From Rhododendron vialii (taxonomy: Eukaryota > Streptophyta > Magnoliopsida > Ericales > Ericaceae): 64,000 bases of DNA. Shown here piece by piece: positions 9,823 to 48,680 of this stretch. Below the pieces are notes generated by a model. The model ran no database searches and had not been told where the DNA came from. It saw only the letters and a list, made by a program, of their open reading frames with translations. The translations under genes were made by a program, and so were the position numbers. Where the stretch lies: contig NC_080562.1 of assembly GCF_030253575.1 (NCBI RefSeq), forward strand, positions 22,165,352-22,229,351, given 5' to 3'. How positions within the stretch are numbered: the stretch's first letter is position 1; the number at the start of each line of letters is the position of its first letter.

Positions 9823-10936
9823 TCACAGATCTCCCCTAAGCAAAGCCATCACAAAATCTTCTTTCTCATCATCTTTCAAGGTAAAGAAACACGCAGTCGT
9901 CGCATGATCACGAGCTATGGCAAGTAAGGCTCTATGGCGTTGAATCATACATAGATCTGAAAGCTTCCGAAGCTCATCATTTACTTTGTCCCTCATCTTA
10001 GCTATAGCAAGATCGACACCAAGAGCTTGACTAAACTTATTAGTTGCTTCTTCAATCTTTGAACCAATGATCGTTGCTGCTTCACGGAAAGCATCCAAGC
10101 TATCATCATTCCTCTTTCTTTTTTTCCCGTTAGAATTACTCTCTTCTCCGTTTGTGGATGACAAGAAGTGCTCCATTTCTTCAATACCAATGCCTAAATT
10201 TTCTGTATCACAACTCCCTTCATTCCTACTCTCCTCCTCTAATACATCCTCAGCAGTAACAGCATTCTTACCCGTGGCACGGTCTTTCCCGAAGACTGTT
10301 AAAAGCATGTCAAAGTGTGGGAAACTCCTATTCCTCCAGTTAGTTGCATCTTTATGGCTCTGAATCAAAATGAAATAAAATAGAAACTCTTCAGTACTAT
10401 GTAAAATCCAGCAAGGTGGGGATTTAAAAGAGAGTAGGAAAGAACAGAAAACATATCAGACAGCACAACACTACCATTTTGTAGCTAATTGGTATATTGG
10501 TCTACAGTACAGTGGAAATTTTGTATCAGACAGAAAAAGTAACAGGTCAGGCAAAAAAGGGAAAAGAAATGACTTAGCGTGAAGTGAAAATGCACAATAC
10601 CTTAACATAGTCATCCCAAATATGTTTTTCAGCAACCACCATATTTGTGTTTGGATCCCATCCGAAGCCACTAGTACTCCCTCCATAGATCATATCATAC
10701 ACGATGCAAACATCCTTCTTTAATGTCTTGATCCTAGATTCGATGTGTGGTTTAGCCTTTATCCCATGTCCAGGTAACTTCTCATGTAATACTCCTTCAA
10801 TCACTGTGAGGGAACCGGCCTTGAACCCATTGTCCCTTTTGTCCCCTTTATTCACCAAGTCATGTAAAGCATAAATCAACTCTCTGTCCTCCTCATCATT
10901 CCATTTTCTGTGTACCTTTTTTTTCCATACTTCTGT
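9823..10936 (-). CDS. Harbinger-associated Myb/SANT-like protein (partial start)
   Basis: Two exons are clear: 10601-10936 and 9823-10359, joined in phase with AG acceptors and a GT donor. Exon one reads KWNDEEDRELIYALHDLVNK and later HIESRIKTLKKDVCIVYDMI and WDDYVK, the trihelix-type Myb_DNA-bind_3 domain. Exon two continues SHKDATNWRNRSFPHFDML, then an acidic linker, a KKRKRNDD basic stretch and a helical C-terminus. In PIF/Pong elements the partner protein binds the TIRs and works with the transposase. No in-frame ATG precedes the domain in exon one and the acceptor lies at 10937-10938, so a first exon upstream is expected but not identified. The frame is open to the stop at 9823. Confidence 0.8.
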
Positions 10937-11129
10937 CTAAAATAATAGAAAGCGAGATAACATCATAAACAAGACAACATAATAGGATTCAAAACACCAA
11001 ATTTATATCCAAACCCACTTTTATCTATTACATGATTGTCCTCATTCATCACCAAAAAAAAAAAAAAAAACAGAATCCTGCATTCTCTTTTCAGCTCTTC
11101 TTGTCACCACATATCATCTACTTGCTCTT

Positions 11130-12554
11130 CTACTTGCTCTCCATGCAATAAAACATAGAAGCTGCCTTGTTGTCTCTAAAAGAGGTCCATTGTGGTGATG
11201 TCTCAACACTAGAAACAATATCTGCGTCCTCTTCATCCCTATTCTCAATGAATCTTATATTTTCAAAGGGGTCTTTTTTCAACTCGTCCCTTATATAGTT
11301 ATGTAGCAAACAACAAGCTAAGATAATATGATTTTCGATTTTAATGGGGTAATAAGAAGGACTCCTAAGAATTGCCCATCGCTTTTTCAATATCGCAAAG
11401 GCCCTTTCTATCACATTTCGAGCACTTGAATGCTTCATATTGAAATATTCCTCCCGAGTTGTAGGTTGACGTCCATCCTTCCAGTCATTCAAATGGTATC
11501 GTTGACCTCTATACGGTGCAAGAAATCCTTCACCATTGGTATACCCCGCATCAACCAAATAGTATGTACCTTTAGAAATGAATAAAGTTTAATTATGTCA
11601 GTGATCTATGACCTCAAAAACAAAATTCAATTGTTTTTGGTGTCATGGTGTCTTACCACGTGGAACAACTAGACCATGGGTTCTATTAATTGCATCTCGT
11701 AACACCCGTCCATCCACTGCTGATCCCTCCCAACCAGGTAACACATAAGTGAATTGAAGGTTTGGGGTACACGCTGCCAAGACATTCGTAGCAATTTGAC
11801 CTTTTCTGTTTCTATACTTAGGCCTATCAACAGCCGGCACTTGGACAAGTATGTGTATTCCATCTAATGCCCCTAGACATCCCTACAAAACATTATAAAA
11901 TTAGGAATAACATGTTGGGAGATCAGGTTGAATTATAACATCGTTACTTGTAAAGACCAAAAACTTGAAATCATTTACCTTAAACCACTTCCATCTCTCA
12001 TCAGTGGAGTTCTGCGGTATTGGTTCAGGTGTCTTGTATAAATGCCCTTGTAGCCTCATAACCGCAACCAAAACTTTTCTGAAAGACCTACTAATTGCCT
12101 CTGCCGAGCGATGGAAATTATTCTGAAGGGTCCTGTTTTTTATATGATGAGCAAGGATATGCAAAAAAATTGCCACTTGCTCATCAACTAACATGTGTCT
12201 GGTTGGCTTTAGCTTCCCGATTGTACTAAGCAAGTGGCACAACTTCAAAAATGGCCGCCTAGGCATTCTAAAATCATTCATACATTTACTATCACTTTTA
12301 TACACCCATTTTTCAATTACATCTCTATTATCATAGAAATCTAACCGATACCTAGATCTAACCCCATGCATGCATTGTCTTTCAACCATCCTATATGCTA
12401 ATTCCATGAATAACCCAAGTAAATGTAGAATGTACAACCACCACTGCATAGCCATTGCCAATTTGCTCCTTTTCATTTTCTTTTTTGATAAACTAAGACG
12501 TGCCATCGCTGAAATTTTTTTGGCAGCAATAAACCTACAAAAGGGCACCAACAC
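11130..12554 (-). CDS. PIF/Harbinger transposase (DDE_Tnp_4), 3 exons
   Basis: The coding sequence is complement(join(11130..11569,11657..11882,11979..12554)), about 413 residues, with GT/AG borders that keep frame. Exon 1 holds the N-terminal helix-turn-helix region (RHMLVDEQVAIFLHILAH, then SAEAISRSFRKVLVAV). Exon 2 begins GCLGALDGIHI, giving the first catalytic Asp. Exon 3 gives YYLVDAGYTNGEGFLAPYRG with the second Asp, then ARNVIERAFAILKKRW with the catalytic Glu, and LACCLLHNYI. The DDE triad is therefore intact. It cuts and pastes the element at TTA sites in the nucleus, usually together with the element's Myb-like protein. The first ATG was taken as the start; a later Met (MARLSLSKKK) or an upstream exon is possible. 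Length and domain order fit plant PIF transposases. Confidence 0.9.
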
Positions 12555-28420: not shown

Positions 28421-29697
28421 AATGGAGGATCCCTATTGGAGATACGGTGCTTCTGCAGACAGAGGTTCTCATTCTTTTGCCCTAACCCTAACTCTTTCTT
28501 CGTTTCTCCTATCTCCCGCACGAATTTTGATACTCGAAAATATTTCAATGTCACGTCTGATTCAGACAGAGCTTAACAACGACTCTATATTCTGGTTCAT
28601 CGTTTGTTCGTTCACGGTTTGTAGGCCCGTTTGAACTCGGACCAGGAAATGTTTACTTTATTCCAGTGGTGTATATAGTGTTACGTGGACAAGAAGTGGT
28701 GATATTTTGAAGAACTTGTAGAAATTTTTACTTAGGTTACTTTTGAAGGCTGGGGGGGGGGGACTGCGGCTCCTGCTTGCCGTCACCTCAGTCCGCCCTG
28801 CGATTGCATATGCGACTGAAATTTGTTTTTGTGATGAATGTGTGGCTTTAATTATTACCAATTCAGTACTTAAAATTGAACATATTGAATGATAAGTGAT
28901 TAAGTTTGATCTTACTATTTGCTTATGTTTTTCTTTTGTGTTTCGCGGCAAAGGTGAACGAGAGCTATATATCTGTCCATTTATTGTACATATATGTTCA
29001 CCCCTTCCCTTTTTGCCTTTTGTTTTGATTATAGCATACCACTATCGAGCGAGGCAGCGATAGTGGTGCCATCAAGGTACCGGCAGCCGTCGCCGAGCAC
29101 GAGGAGGCTGTCGACTTCGCCAGGGAGGAGGTTGTTGGGTGGGAATAGGGTTTTGCCGGCGAGGTTGGATTCGGCTAGTAAGAAGAAGATGGCGAGCATA
29201 GCTGCTGTGAGTTGAAGGTTTCGGAGGAGGCACTTGTGGGGTCGGGGAAGGGGAATAGGAAGAGTTGGGATGAGTTACCGGTGGAGTTGGTCGCGTCCTC
29301 TCTTGAGGTGAAAGAGAAGGATTCTTCCAAGAACAAGCCGAATTTGCAAGCTATTTTGTGAACTCAGGTAATTTGATCCTATTTTGTGAGTTTTTTGATC
29401 AGCATTTGTTATTCGCCTGTGATGTTTTAATTGTACTACTTGAGATATAAGATATTTTGAGAGAAGGGTTTAGTTTTGTAGCACTGTAATAGTTTTGAGA
29501 ACAGATGAGGAGGACATAAATTAGTCCCCTGTACTCTACTAGAATGTTATTCTGCAATTTCTTCCAAACACCCAGAACCCCAAAACAGAAACATCCCAAA
29601 TTTGAAAATCCGGCTCCTAAACACCCCCTTAGTCCACCATATATGGGGCTATGTAACACCATGGGAGGAGGTGGCATTAGCTAGTCCCCTCCTCTCG
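28296..29697 (+). repeat. Repeated module, copy B
   Basis: This is the direct copy of the module inverted at 1-1245; its 3' part (29110-29697) recurs at 48105-48680. In order: a GGCCGAGTTCGTCGATCAGA leader; a GA microsatellite (about 28352-28412); the reading MEDPYWRYGASADRG at 28422 followed by a possible donor; AT-rich intron-like DNA; a G run (28750-28760); a block whose minus strand reads [20 protein letters not shown] and [20 protein letters not shown] before a stop; and an end with CACCCCCTTAGTCC. Whether this is the 5' end of the helicase relic's source gene or an independent repeat is open. Three copies in 64 kb favour a mobile or duplicated unit. Confidence 0.75.
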
Positions 29698-31699: not shown

Positions 31700-33130
31700 T
31701 GATTAGCAATCTATTTAGTAATGCCCTTGTATAAGGTATCAATAGAATATTGTCAGAAATTGATATGCCCTTGACAAACGCAGCCTGAGCTTTATTGATA
31801 ATGTGAGGCAAAACTGGTTGTAATCTGGTAGCTAGGATCTTAGTAATAGTCTTGTATAAAACGTTGCAACAAGCAATAGGATGATAGTCCTTCATGGTAA
31901 GAGGACAACTGGTTTTAGGGATCAAAGTTAGAGGTGTGGCATTCACATCCCTTAACAAAGAACCAGTTTGAAAGAAATAGAGAACAGCATCAATAACCTC
32001 TTGGCCAACAACTTACCAATTTTTCTGAAAGAAACTGGCACTATAACCATCAGGACCCGGGGATTTCTCACCATTAATTGCAAATATAGCCACTCTGATT
32101 TCCTCTGAAGTAACAGGAGGAGTAAGAGCTGAATGGAAGCAATGAGGTACTGTGTTGGTAAAACTGAAACCCTCCCTGGAGGGTCGTTTCTGATAGAACT
32201 TTGTGCCAAGCATCATCTTGTAGAATTGCAGAATTTCCCCTTTAACAGCCTGAGGTTCCTCCAAACGATTACCTTGCTCATCACTGATTGACAGAATTTT
32301 ATTCCTCATCCTATGACTAGCTACCTTCTTATGAAAGAAACGAGTATTATTTATCCCCCAGCTCCAGCCACTTAATTCTGGATTTCTGCTTACTCCAAGC
32401 TTCTTCAGCAGCACTAAGATCATTAAAATTCAGCAGACAAAGCTTTTCGTAGTCCAGCAAGATGGGATCACTAGAAGAGTGAGCACGACGACTTTGAACA
32501 CTAAGAAGCTCCTCCCTAGCAACCATCACCCTATTTTGAATATCAATATAGAATTCCTTATTGAATTCCCTTAGACAAGGCTTTAGTCTTCGCATCTTAT
32601 TATACAGGAGCAGCATAGGATTATCACCATTTTCCACAGGATTACACCATGACAAAGTAAGAAGAGAGGAGAAGTTCTTATGGTTCATCCAAAAATTAAA
32701 AAATTTAAATGGTTTTTTCCCTCCCTTATAAGGAAAAAGAGAAACCACTAGTGGGCTGTGATCAGAAACACCTGGAGTAAGAACTGCAGCTTCAGTCTCC
32801 TTAAACAAATTCTGCCATTGATTATTAACTAGAGCTCTGTCCAATCGACTGCAACAATGATCTTGACCACTCCTTTTATTTGACCAAGTAAACCAAGAGC
32901 CTTTTGTATTCAGATCTTCCATACCAATATCTTCCAAGCATTTATTAAACTCCCCACCAGCATTTACGTCAAAATGAGTAGGATCTGACTTCTCATTCTG
33001 CCATCTAACTATATTAAAATCGCCCATAAGGATCCAAGGTAGAGACCCCATACATCCATACTCAGCTTGGGATAAACAGGGGACTTTGGTGAATGTTTCT
33101 CTACTACTGATCAGATGATTACTCTTTCTG
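31700..33130 (-). pseudogene. LINE ORF2 part: endonuclease C-half and RT N-part
   Basis: The minus-strand frame from 33051 reads SLPWILMGDFNIVR, then GSWFTWSNKRSGQDHCCSRL DRAL and SDHSPLVVSL, the APE-type endonuclease motifs (GDFN, TW.N, DR, SDH). A following frame at 32423-32013 has NNTRFFHK, then GEKSPGPDGYSASFFQKNW, the start of reverse transcriptase. A further frame gives LIPKTSCPLTMKDYHPIACC and AQAAFVKGISISDNILL. Three frames are needed, so it is broken at least twice, and the RT active site, RNase H and 3' tail are missing. Confidence 0.85.
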
Positions 33131-33169
33131 TTGAAATGGAATCGATTACTCTTTACCTAAGACCTTGTG

Positions 33170-35150
33170 TGCGAAGATGAGAAAAACCCGCTAGGCGATT
33201 TGGGTGCTCTCCTTTTCGTCTCGATTCTTGCTTGATTCTTCTCGCATTTTCTCTGGCTGGGCCAGCTCTGCGCATGGAGGTTAGTTCGTTCTCCTTTCCG
33301 TCTTTGCAAGAGGTGTTTCCTAGTTGTAGTTCTCCGTTGGCTGCTGCTAGGGTTTCTGATTCTGTTCCTGTGGAAGTTCTTCCTTCGGTTAATTCGATTG
33401 GGGGTTTGGGTGTTTCTGAGAAGTCTGCTCCGATTGGATTGACAGAATTCTCTATGGATCCTACTATTGCTGATAAAATTGTGTCTAATGAGTTGTATGA
33501 ATTGCTTGATGAGTCGAATAAGGGTCGATTTGCGCATTTACAAATTGCTGATTCTGATGATTCCTATTTGAAACAGATTAAGGTTTTGTCTTCTAAATCC
33601 TTTTGTTACGTTCTCAAGTGGAAAATAAAATGGTTGAGAAATCTGGTGGTTCTGGAAATAGTAATAATTCTAGGGTTCCTGCTATTGGTTTGACTGCTGG
33701 GGTGTCTTGGAGAGATACTGTTGCTCCTCCTAGTGAGGAGAGTCCTCGTATGCGGCTAGAGTTTTTTCCCCCTGTAATTGATGGTGATAAAGTTAGGGTT
33801 TCTACTCCAAATCAGGTTGAAGAGTTGGGGATGGAGAAATGGCAGGATTGTGTGGTGGGGCACTTTGTGGACAAGAAGTTGCCTTACATGACTGTTAGAT
33901 CTATTGCATTCAACAAATGGGCTAAATTTGGTTTGTCTGATGTGCTATCCAATGACAAGGGTTTTTATTTTTATTTTTTCCAGTTTGGGGTATCTGGGGC
34001 TTATAGACAGATTGTGGAGGCTGGCCCGTGGCACTTTGGTGGTAGATTGATGGTGTTGCAACAATGGAGTCCTGATTTAGAGTTTGAAAAGGAGGGTTTG
34101 AATAGATTTCTCATTTGGGTACAGCTTTATGATGTTCCTTTGCAGTTGTGAACTGCTCCGGGCCTTAGCTAGTTCTGTGGGTAGGCCCTAATATGCTGAT
34201 GGTGTGACAAGTCTGGTAAACGTATTGGCTACACTAAGATTTGTGTGGAAGTGACTGTTGATTCTCCTTTGCCTCACTCTGTTGAGGTGACTCTAGCCTC
34301 TAGTAGATCAGTTACTGTTGGTATCAAGTATCCCTGGCGACATGTTAAGTGTCAGAGCTGCAAAGTGTTTGGTCATTCTGACTGTTCTCGGCAGGTGACT
34401 GGTGAAGCCGGGTCGTTAATATGGCTGGGCTAGGCAAGGTTTGGGTTGTGAAAACTGGAAAAGATGTGGCTACAATGGATTTGTCAATAGCTTCTGATGT
34501 TGTCATTTCTGAAGCGGCTGTTGGGACTTCTACTCCTTCAGCTGTGGTTCAAGAAAGTGCTGATTGTACTGATGTGGTTATAGGGAAGGGTGATATTATG
34601 GCTAAAAGGACTCCAGGGTCTGGCTCTTTGAGAGCAGGTTCTGTTACGACTGGTACTCGTAAAGTCTTGGTTGCTGGTGTCTCTCCAAAGTCTAATATGT
34701 TTGCTGCTCTTTCAGATTGGGGTGGGGGGGCGGTGTGTGTGAAGGTTGCAGGAGATGCTGTTAGCAATGAGGTTAGCTCTTCTTCCTTATCTCCTATTCA
34801 CTGTAATATGAAAGGGGGTGCTCCTCCTGTGTTTGAAATTAGTATGGCAGCTCAGGATTCTTATGAATTCTTATCTAATGATCTTGGAGTGGGTATGACT
34901 GACCCTGATGCTGTTATGATGGCTCTGGATTCTGTAGGGTTGAGTAAGCCTAAAGGGCGTAGTAAGGCTCCTGGGGTTGGGAAGGGTGGAAAGAAAACTA
35001 AAAAGTGATGATTAAGTTTGCTTCTTGGAATATTAGGGGCTTAAATAGCCCCATTAAGCAAGTAGAAATAAGAAAATTCATTCATACTAATAAGTTGTCG
35101 TTGATTGGAATCATTGAAACCAAAGTTAGACAGGAGTTTCTTGTCTGCAT
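33170..35150 (+). pseudogene. LINE ORF1 (DUF4283, zinc knuckle) and start of ORF2
   Basis: The frame at 33270-33620 reads a serine-rich leader ending DPTIADKIVSNELYELL. After a frame change, 33615-34151 gives the DUF4283 domain (VGHFVDKKLPYMTVRSIAFN KW, EAGPWHFGGRLMVLQQW). After stops, 34245-34433 gives KYPWRHVKCQSCKVFGHSDC, the zinc knuckle, and 34421-35008 gives a low-complexity C-terminal region ending in KKTKK. At 35005 a new ATG begins KFASWNIRGLNSPIKQVEIR and IGIIETKVRQE, the endonuclease start of ORF2, which is cut off at about 35140. This is the usual plant L1 order. It is decayed by several stops and shifts. Confidence 0.85.
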
Positions 35151-35205
35151 TTGTTCTTGTTTACAGCTGCTTGCTTTAACTGAAAGAATCTAACTTGTTG
35201 ACTGA

Positions 35206-36160
35206 GGGGGTGTTTGGAAACCTACTTTTTGGCTTTTCATTTTTAACTTTTTGGCTTTTTGACTTTTTAAATTATGGTCAAAATGTATTTTAGAGATTGA
35301 AAGAGTGTTTGGGAGATATGTGCAGAATGTATTTTGGAACAGTAGTAGTGTTTGGTAGATGAATGATGAAAATGAATTATGGATTATTTTTTACGAAATT
35401 GCCCTTGACCTTTATTATTGTTTTAAAAAGTGTACAAATTTTGTTTTCTTTTTGCCTTTGGCTGTTTCTACTGTGTTAAAATAAAACAAACCACAGTTAA
35501 ATACACCCATTTTTTTTTTCGTTTTAAGAAAACAGAGACCAGTTCGGAAACAAAGCATCACAAATCTCAGTGAACACCTCAACGATAACCCTATGATGGT
35601 GATGAGAATTCACAGACAGAAAAGTCTCCAACAAATCCTCCAGATCCCTCTGTTCAAAAAAAAAAAAAAATTCCTCCAGATCCCTAGCATCGAAAATCTG
35701 CTTCTCCACAATCATCTCCACCATGGAAGTCGTGAAATCAGCGTACGAGTCACTCGATTGCTTCTCCACCACAAAGCAACCGTCCTTCACTTTTCCGTCG
35801 ACGACCACGTCACTTTTCCGTCGACGACCACGACCCTTCTCCGAGTTTCTTCTCTTCTTTCGTTTCTCCTCTCTCTCTCTCTGGTGTGAAGTGTGAACAG
35901 GTGATGAAGAAATAAGTGGATAAGAGGAAGGGGCAAAACTGGTAAATGAAAGGGAGGTAAGTGGATTTGGTAATTGACCACAAAATGGAAAAATGTAAAA
36001 ATGTGAAAAACACCTCCTGGCTTGATTCTGGGTTTTTGCTCCAAAACTGAAAAACAAAGAATCCATTCTCCAAGAATCCATTCTCATAATGCAATGCCAA
36101 ACACCCAAAATAGAAAAATGCAAATGCAAAAATGGGAAAATGGGGTTCCCAAACACCCCC
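35206..36160. mobile_element. Harbinger-like TIR element carrying a host gene piece
   Basis: The ends are GGGGGTGTTTGGAAACC and, inverted, GGGGGTGTTTGGGAACCCC, flanked by TGA on both sides (35203-35205 and 36161-36163). Further copies of GTGTTTGG lie inward on each side, as in subterminal repeats. The TIR style resembles the autonomous Harbinger element here (GGGTGCGTTTGG), but the duplication is TGA instead of TTA. It has no transposase; the interior holds an OVATE-domain reading on the minus strand. It is 955 bases long and would need a transposase supplied from elsewhere. Confidence 0.7.
35524..35850 (-). pseudogene. OVATE family protein (OFP) C-terminal fragment, captured
   Basis: The minus strand reads RRRKSDVVVDGKVKDGCFVV EKQSSDSYADF, then TTSMVEMIVEKQIFDARDLE, an insert, DLLETFLSVNSHHHHRVIVE and VFTEICDALF before a stop. 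This is the complete OVATE domain of plant transcriptional repressors that shape organs. The insert of 12 residues (EFFFFFEQRDLE) comes from a CTGTTC plus A15 block at about 35649-35670 flanked by direct copies of TCCTCCAGATCCCT; without it the domain is seamless. The frame is open upstream to 36156, but that part is non-coding in style and no OFP N-terminus exists. It sits wholly inside a TIR element, so it is a captured fragment. Whether it is expressed is unknown. Confidence 0.8.
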
Positions 36161-36672
36161 TGAGTGAGCTTTAAGTCTTTAGTATCTAGCTCTTACATGT
36201 AAGCAGGTGTAACTTTGACTTTATTATAGGCAACCTTACGAATTGCAGCTATGGCTAGAACAAATGAGTTTCAGCAAAATACTATATTTCTTGGTCTTAG
36301 AAAGACTTGATAATACTTGTTATTGCTTGACATTTCCTATTTCCCCTTTGGGAAACCAACTCGTTTCTTTTCATAATGGAAAAGTTTGGTGCTTTATGTT
36401 GTTACATTGCCCCATCATATAGTTGTGAAAAAAGCGCCCATGCTCAAGGCGCAACAAGGCACCTGGTTTGTGCCTCAAGATGTCTGGGGCGGGGCGACGG
36501 CCTAAAGGTGAGGGTATATGCGTTGAGGCGCACCTCTTTTTACATTTTTGTAAATGAAACAGGAAAGGGTAAAAACTTTACAAAAGCTAATCCTAATAGA
36601 CCAAACCTTCTAGTCGACTTGTCTTCTCTTCTCTAGAGATGAAATAACTCGCAGACTTCTCCAAGCACCAAC

Positions 36673-48104: not shown

Positions 48105-48680
48105 CTCGAGGTTGTCGGGCGGGATTAGGGTTTCACCGGCGAGGTTAGATTTGGCTTGTAAGAAGAAGATGGTGAGCATAGTTACCGTGATTCAAAGGTT
48201 TCGGAGGCACTTGTGGGGTCAGAGAAGAGGAGTAGGAAGAATTGGGGTGAGTTACCGGTGGAGTCGGTTGCAGCCTCTATTGAGATGAAAGAGAAGGGTT
48301 CTGCCAAGAACAAGCCGGATTGCAAGCTATTTTGCGAACTCGGGTAATTTGATCAGCACTTGTTCTTTGCCTGTTTCATGATTTTTTTTATCAGCATTTG
48401 TTATTTGCCTGTGATGTTTTGTATTGTTTGAGATATAAGATATTTTGTGAGAAGGGCTTAGTTTTGTAGCACTATAATGGTTTTGACAACAGATGAGGAC
48501 AAAAATTAGTCCCCTGTACTCTACTAGAATGTTATTCTGCGATTTCTCCCAAACACCCAGAACCCCAAAACAGAAACATCCCAAATGTGAAAATCCGGCT
48601 CCCGAACACCCCCTTAGTCCACCATAAATGGGGCTACGTAACACCATGAGAGGAGGTGGTATTAGCTAGTCCCCTCTCAA
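48105..48680 (+). repeat. Repeated module, copy C (3' part)
   Basis: This matches 29110-29697 in the same orientation, from GAGGTTGTCGGGCGGGATTA to CATTAGCTAGTCCCCT-type sequence; it lacks the microsatellite and MEDPYWRY part. It begins directly after the broken end of the SGR6 relic and ends against the ABCC relic, so its borders coincide with both gene breaks. A shared CACCCCCTTAGTCCACCAT near the right end resembles a Harbinger-type terminus next to TTA. Confidence 0.8.

Follow-up and report, generated by a model that had tools for sequence, protein, structure and literature searches.

How a fragment of an OFP gene came to lie between two short inverted repeats was the question raised by a locus on contig C6 of Rhododendron vialii, situated in a 64,000-nt stretch of DNA that was analyzed as a whole (hereafter the window). 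The sequence-only reading had seen there a Harbinger-like unit of 955 bases, delimited by inverted ends and TGA flanks, which had captured an OVATE-domain fragment. The unit was found at 35206–36160, with 12-nt ends GGGGGTGTTTGG and CCAAACACCCCC and a TGA at either side, so that its length, ends, flanks, and coordinates were all as had been proposed. No open frame of transposase size was present within the 955 nt. After comparisons with the genome (532.6 Mb in 13 contigs), we explain the unit, with a probability of about 0.9, as a Pack-TYPE non-autonomous PIF/Harbinger transposon that captured an OFP gene's 3' end, multiplied, and then drifted, presumably without function. The features of the element are collected in Table 1; its left backbone extends slightly past the capture junction, over a few bases that the donor gene has as well.

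Table 1. Features of the element and its flanks (positions are those of the window; TIR, terminal inverted repeat).
Feature	Position	Strand	Basis
Non-autonomous PIF/Harbinger (Pack-PIF type) element, 955 nt	35206..36160	.	Ends, copies, duplications, empty sites
Left TIR, GGGGGTGTTTGG	35206..35217	+	Read, and genome word count
Right TIR	36149..36160	-	Read, and genome word count
Left copy of the target-site duplication, TGA	35203..35205	.	Single TGA in the paralogous empty sites L082 and L083
Right copy of the target-site duplication, TGA	36161..36163	.	Sequence and empty-site comparison
Left family backbone (element 1-278)	35206..35483	.	Also in relatives without the OFP piece
Right family backbone (element 636-955)	35841..36160	.	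As for the left backbone
Captured OFP gene piece (coding end and 3' UTR)	35477..35799	-	Best donor match L051, C1:12419302
OVATE domain PF04844, two stretches (35548-35655 and 35662-35757)	35548..35757	-	Pfam
14-nt direct repeat TCCTCCAGATCCCT around CTGTTC and poly(A); insert 35650-35671	35636..35685	.	Alignment of copies and donor
23-nt tandem duplication spanning the capture junction	35787..35832	.	1, 2 or 3 units by copy

The exact TIR 12-mer was counted 358 times in the forward and 311 times in the reverse orientation across the whole genome (669 in all), against 32 and 41 occurrences (73 in all) of the same pattern read backwards, which served as the control. This difference, together with the six copies and the empty sites described below, rejected the possibility of chance TIR words. 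A TIR pair unique in the genome, an outcome that the sequence-only reading had named as fatal to the capture idea, was thus not what the genome held. With the whole unit as the query, 73 matches were obtained from the 40 scored of 751 candidates, so the counts for the element family are lower bounds. At least five other copies extended over most of the length (98, 96, 93, 93, and 91% identity), and many further matches covered only parts of 1–278 and ~636–955. The interior alone, for which 11 of 11 candidates were scored, gave 12 matches. Six of these were the element copies and two were parts of the donor; the others were a truncated paralogue and three more OFP genes. Other copies with the same TIRs, which it had been proposed to seek genome-wide, therefore exist, at least six of them carrying the OFP piece. 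These six lie one per contig on C6, C8, C4, C1, C12, and C3; they have ends identical in kind, differing flanking sequences, and a K2P divergence of 0.017–0.058 among them. Multiple copies of a captured piece within the same ends, as expected of a Pack-TYPE element, were thereby found.

Searched with the PF04844 profile, the genome yielded 32 matches, of which 19 scored ≥77 bits and were near full-length. The donor, L051 on C1, has an intact open frame of 329 codons with the OVATE domain at its end and is identical to the captured piece at 217 of 228 aligned coding bases. The parent OFP gene that had been predicted was hence located, and the full gene sits elsewhere in the genome; its occurrence as a full gene at an orthologous locus without these TIRs would have spoken against capture. 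A host gene fragment between TIRs and an intact gene elsewhere are both what a Pack-TYPE element should present. The claim of a full OVATE domain was only partly accurate: all of the domain is present (E = 2.8e-19; score 69.3 bits, cut-off 25), but it is not continuous, being split by a 36-nt insert. The accompanying claim that nothing else of the host gene was included had to be abandoned, as the donor 3' UTR also lies within 35477–35799. In the element, 39 donor nucleotides including the stop codon are missing, after which the similarity resumes in the 3' UTR; because of this loss the element frame is three residues longer.

The insert adds 12 residues in the window copy, and since its 36 nt sit in the middle of the domain, Pfam matches OVATE as two stretches. 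Extra sequence of 32–36 nt is found within the domain in all six copies, always with TCCTCCAGATCCCT on either side of a short CTGTTC-like word and 12–15 A, some copies deviating by single differences. In the aligned donor stretch, this 14-mer occurs once and the insert is absent. Judging by this layout, the insert resembles a very short retroposed sequence flanked by its target duplication. The 23-nt unit at the capture junction is single in L013 and L014, double in L009 (the window copy), L010, and L011, and triple in L012. The following course of events is proposed. In one event, an ancestor would have acquired internally ~320 bp of the OFP 3' end, comprising late coding sequence and 3' UTR. 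Later, a short insertion containing poly(A) would have divided the OVATE domain, and the element would next have spread, giving no fewer than six copies distributed over six contigs, the movement probably being driven in trans by the transposase of related elements with the same ends. Afterwards, the copies would have drifted under little or no constraint.

The insertion itself was looked at by querying the genome with the window flanks joined by one TGA, the joint being at position 300. Among 25 matches, three loci besides the window matched the joined flanks 232–454 unbroken through the joint (93, 86, and 81%). Two of them, L082 and L083, read GTTGACTGAGTGAG at the target, which is the exact single TGA. 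An empty site with a single TGA, as had been anticipated, was accordingly present at two of three loci of this genome, all of them paralogous, not allelic; the third, L081, reads GTTGAATGATTGAG. Since the three paralogous loci lack the element, we conclude that it inserted into a dispersed sequence and that TGA was doubled. At the window copy alone, a 3-bp TGA duplication and a 5-bp CTGAG duplication, the latter implying ends shortened by one base, are indistinguishable because G and C adjoin TGA, and the other copies favour the 3-bp length. Identical 3-nt neighbours were seen in 9 of 23 end-paired elements compared with 21 of 506 crossed pairs; the remaining 14, including the OFP copies L010 and L011, had no exact 3-bp match beside their ends. 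The 23 paired elements come from 32 loci, nine of which gave no end pair, the OFP copy L014 with its AAT/AAT flanks being one of these nine. Among seven TIR pairs chosen by eye from 100 listed places, rather than drawn from all 669, six had an exact 3-bp duplication and one was without it. Six of the 15 exact duplications were TTA or TAA, and the others were TGA, TTT, AAA, ATA, TAC, ACT, CAG, CTA, and GTT. The duplication sequences are thus less uniform than is usual for PIF elements (TTA/TAA), and the TGA of the window copy departs from that pattern. According to PMC8903248, TTA/TAA duplications account for 52.4% of rice PIF and 81.2% of maize PIF elements, so they are usual and not absolute.

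The assignment to a superfamily was aided by a relative on C1, L069, in which a pair of the same TIRs encloses 7,267 nt between CAG/CAG flanks. Two of its four scanned open pieces matched DDE_Tnp_4 (PF13359, E = 2.1e-10) and a Myb/SANT-like domain (PF12776, E = 5.1e-17), and the other two gave no Pfam match. A DDE_Tnp_4 transposase and a Myb/SANT-like protein are the pair expected in a PIF/Harbinger element. The ends of L069 resemble those of the window element (83% over 199 nt at one, 77% over 64 nt at the other); because the similarity is confined to the ends, L069 is a family relative and not a proven source of transposase. The repeated TIRs, the 3-bp duplications, and the L069 domains back the Harbinger-like label, and a Harbinger-type TIR element with a captured OFP fragment is supported. 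Mutator and CACTA elements are the best-known captors of gene pieces, and the duplication sequences found here are more varied than TTA/TAA, which might lead one to place the unit in Mutator (as a Pack-MULE), CACTA, or hAT. We consider such a placement extremely improbable, given the 3-bp duplication deduced from the paralogous empty sites (5 bp, CTGAG, being possible at the window copy alone) and repeated at further family members, the absence of CACTA ends, and the domains encoded by L069 between the same TIRs. A Pack-MULE would have called for a 9-bp duplication and a Mutator transposase relative; 3 bp and Harbinger domains were found instead. The chance of a decayed or duplicated OFP gene lying by accident between two GGGGGTGTTTGG words is negligible. 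Such pseudogenes do occur in this genome, as is shown by the truncated paralogue of the donor OFP on C9 (L067, C9:6591520; 85% over 790 aligned nt, ending within the OVATE domain), but six copies share the same ends in differing flanks, and decay of an OFP gene in place is contradicted by the paralogous empty sites of the window copy.

With the Pack-TYPE Harbinger element as the preferred reading of the origin, the function of the captured piece had to be weighed, since a dominant small OFP-like peptide and a source of small RNA against the parent gene had both been suggested. The listed frame has 210 aa from a GTG and 187 aa from the first ATG (121 codons before an internal ATG plus 66), and much of it is transposon backbone. 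A short peptide interfering with full-length OFPs would draw support from the fact that the 187-aa frame covers the domain in the window copy, from the Pfam score, and from the NG86 estimates, in which 10 of 15 copy pairs had a dN lower than dS, four a higher one, and one an equal one, all based on very few changes. However, 12 residues are inserted into the domain, and its halves are in phase only in L009 and L014 and out of phase in the other four of the six copies; of these two, L009 alone has an upstream ATG in the joined OVATE frame. The uninterrupted OVATE domain in a conserved frame expected of a functional OFP was thus not seen. Outside the insert, the copies differ by 12 missense, two nonsense (both in L014), and five synonymous changes, a near-neutral pattern roughly as would be expected without selection, though too small for a formal test. 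It is unlike that between the donor and its paralogue L053 (dN 0.104, dS 0.857), values that indicate constraint in the donor lineage. Between the copies and the donor, dN was 0.034–0.053 and dS 0.043–0.090; these values, like those of the copy pairs, may reflect weak constraint on the OVATE frame, partly on the donor side. The phase loss, the near-neutral changes, and the L014 nonsense changes led us to reject a conserved peptide, and a functional peptide from the window copy is very unlikely. If the copies drift with little constraint, the OVATE frame of the window copy would have stayed open by chance in a poly-A/T run prone to slippage. As for small RNAs silencing the donor OFP in trans, each copy has 46–113 perfect 21-mers in common with the donor locus, with the longest identical blocks of 47–77 nt, so such action is possible, and dispersed copies could be read antisense from adjoining promoters. 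Against this, the RNA fold of the window copy was no better than that of its shuffles (z = -0.01; 11 of 20 shuffles folded at least as well), and the perfect TIRs are just 12 nt. No hairpin beyond chance was detected in the window copy with these 20 shuffles, and a hairpin as the small-RNA source was rejected for that copy. From these comparisons, we regard silencing by the six copies as unlikely.

The capture of the OFP piece appears not to be the only one in this family. Three elements (L022, L029, and L035) have the same backbone as the OFP elements and a different interior. When this interior was used as a query, 10 matches were returned, namely these three elements, C12:35395161 (93% over 1–243), and the six OFP elements, which matched only in the backbone (≤39 nt at 95–98%). 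In the region L078 around the C12 match (C12:35391000-35399000), an exact GGGTGTTTGG word was absent, and nothing matched the window element. The 292 nt of similarity stop there about ten codons into a 329-codon open frame starting from ATG. PF00069 (E = 2.7e-67) identifies the first 313 residues of this frame as a protein kinase; the nearest solved structure is 7xbr, 'Mitogen-activated protein kinase kinase 5' (E = 2.3e-143). We take the 7xbr kinase to be the plant MKK5 and call the L078 gene, presumably, MKK4/5-type. The interior of the three elements thus corresponds to the beginning of a kinase gene (5' UTR and roughly ten codons), and therefore the same family caught a second gene. For the interior of L072, found at five places at 90–100%, a separate donor was not found, and the 31 matches to the L071 interior revealed no clear donor; two C10 regions gave partial matches to the L071 element only (the longer ones at 71–81%) and contained no recognized gene. 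Nested inserts with CTCCCTCCGTCCC-like ends, of the kind seen in Stowaway elements, lie inside the family elements L016, L026, and L035.

Roughly the same internal interval is thus occupied, depending on the subfamily, by the OFP 3' end, by the MKK4/5-type 5' UTR with about ten codons, or by non-genic or unidentified sequence. It is a tentative and rather doubtful proposal that the family acts as a serial gene catcher, that capture proceeds via template-switching repair, and that the dispersed pieces might silence their donors through small RNA. The model favoured in PMC8903248 is the fusion of neighbouring insertions. At the junctions of the OFP piece, the donor and the backbone have TAAAATA (7 nt) and TTCC (~4 nt) in common, as judged by eye and with no statistic attached. 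The exact GGGTGTTTGG word was absent from 8.5 kb around the donor L051, where, outside the donor matches, nothing element-like was found except one weak 37-nt match. These short overlaps and the lack of a TIR word near the donor would fit template switching better than a fusion of neighbouring insertions.

Pack-MULEs and Pack-CACTA elements carry a host gene fragment between TIRs and multiply it by transposition. The present family is like them in having a TIR-bounded host fragment spread by transposition and differs in the superfamily, the ends, the duplication length, and the transposase. Capture by PIF elements has already been published for Pifvine-3 of grapevine (Benjak et al. 2008, PMC2528002) and for Pack-PIF elements of maize and rice (Gisby and Catoni 2022, PMC8903248), the latter also naming Pack-MULE and Pack-CACTA; the remark that capture is less well known for PIF/Harbinger units was fair, yet cases were in print, so the OVATE-bearing element adds to the known Pack-PIF type. 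Plant gene capture is also covered by a 2026 review (PMC13317346). Among openly licensed papers, none was found that describes OVATE sequence carried by a Harbinger element. The closest likeness is the maize Zm-Pack-PIF cluster #18 (PMC8903248), a short non-autonomous PIF with conserved ends and a host piece in many copies, of which related elements without the piece also exist. It differs in the species, the donor gene, and the TIR, and its piece-bearing group is described there as shorter (535 bp on average) and more numerous (72 elements) than ours. Pifvine-3 (PMC2528002) is likewise a dicot PIF with host exon and intron sequence, sometimes in several copies; its elements are long and have, in addition to the usual coding regions, as much as 3.5 kb of further 5' sequence, whereas the unit studied here has 955 nt and no transposase. 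Altogether, the locus offers a worked PIF/Harbinger capture in which the donor, the copies, the paralogous empty sites, and a coding relative are visible in one genome, and with the second capture this opens the capture mechanism of a less-studied superfamily to testing. In terms of new gene function the element looks ordinary, the captured piece being out of frame in most copies.

Other mobile sequences were noticed in the window. LINE-like pieces in opposite orientations were read at 32013–35140, with an ORF1-like part and the start of an endonuclease on the plus strand and the later endonuclease and a reverse-transcriptase-like part on the minus strand. This is the arrangement of a LINE whose 5' part has been inverted. 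On C10, a 96% match stops at ~35139. Two near-identical Harbinger-type ends with the same outer flank lie at 29540–29660 and 48530–48660, which suggests one transposon end duplicated along with its neighbourhood. Finally, a second Harbinger-type transposase was observed on the minus strand at 9823–12554 (PF13359, E = 8.2e-16 for 11130–11558).
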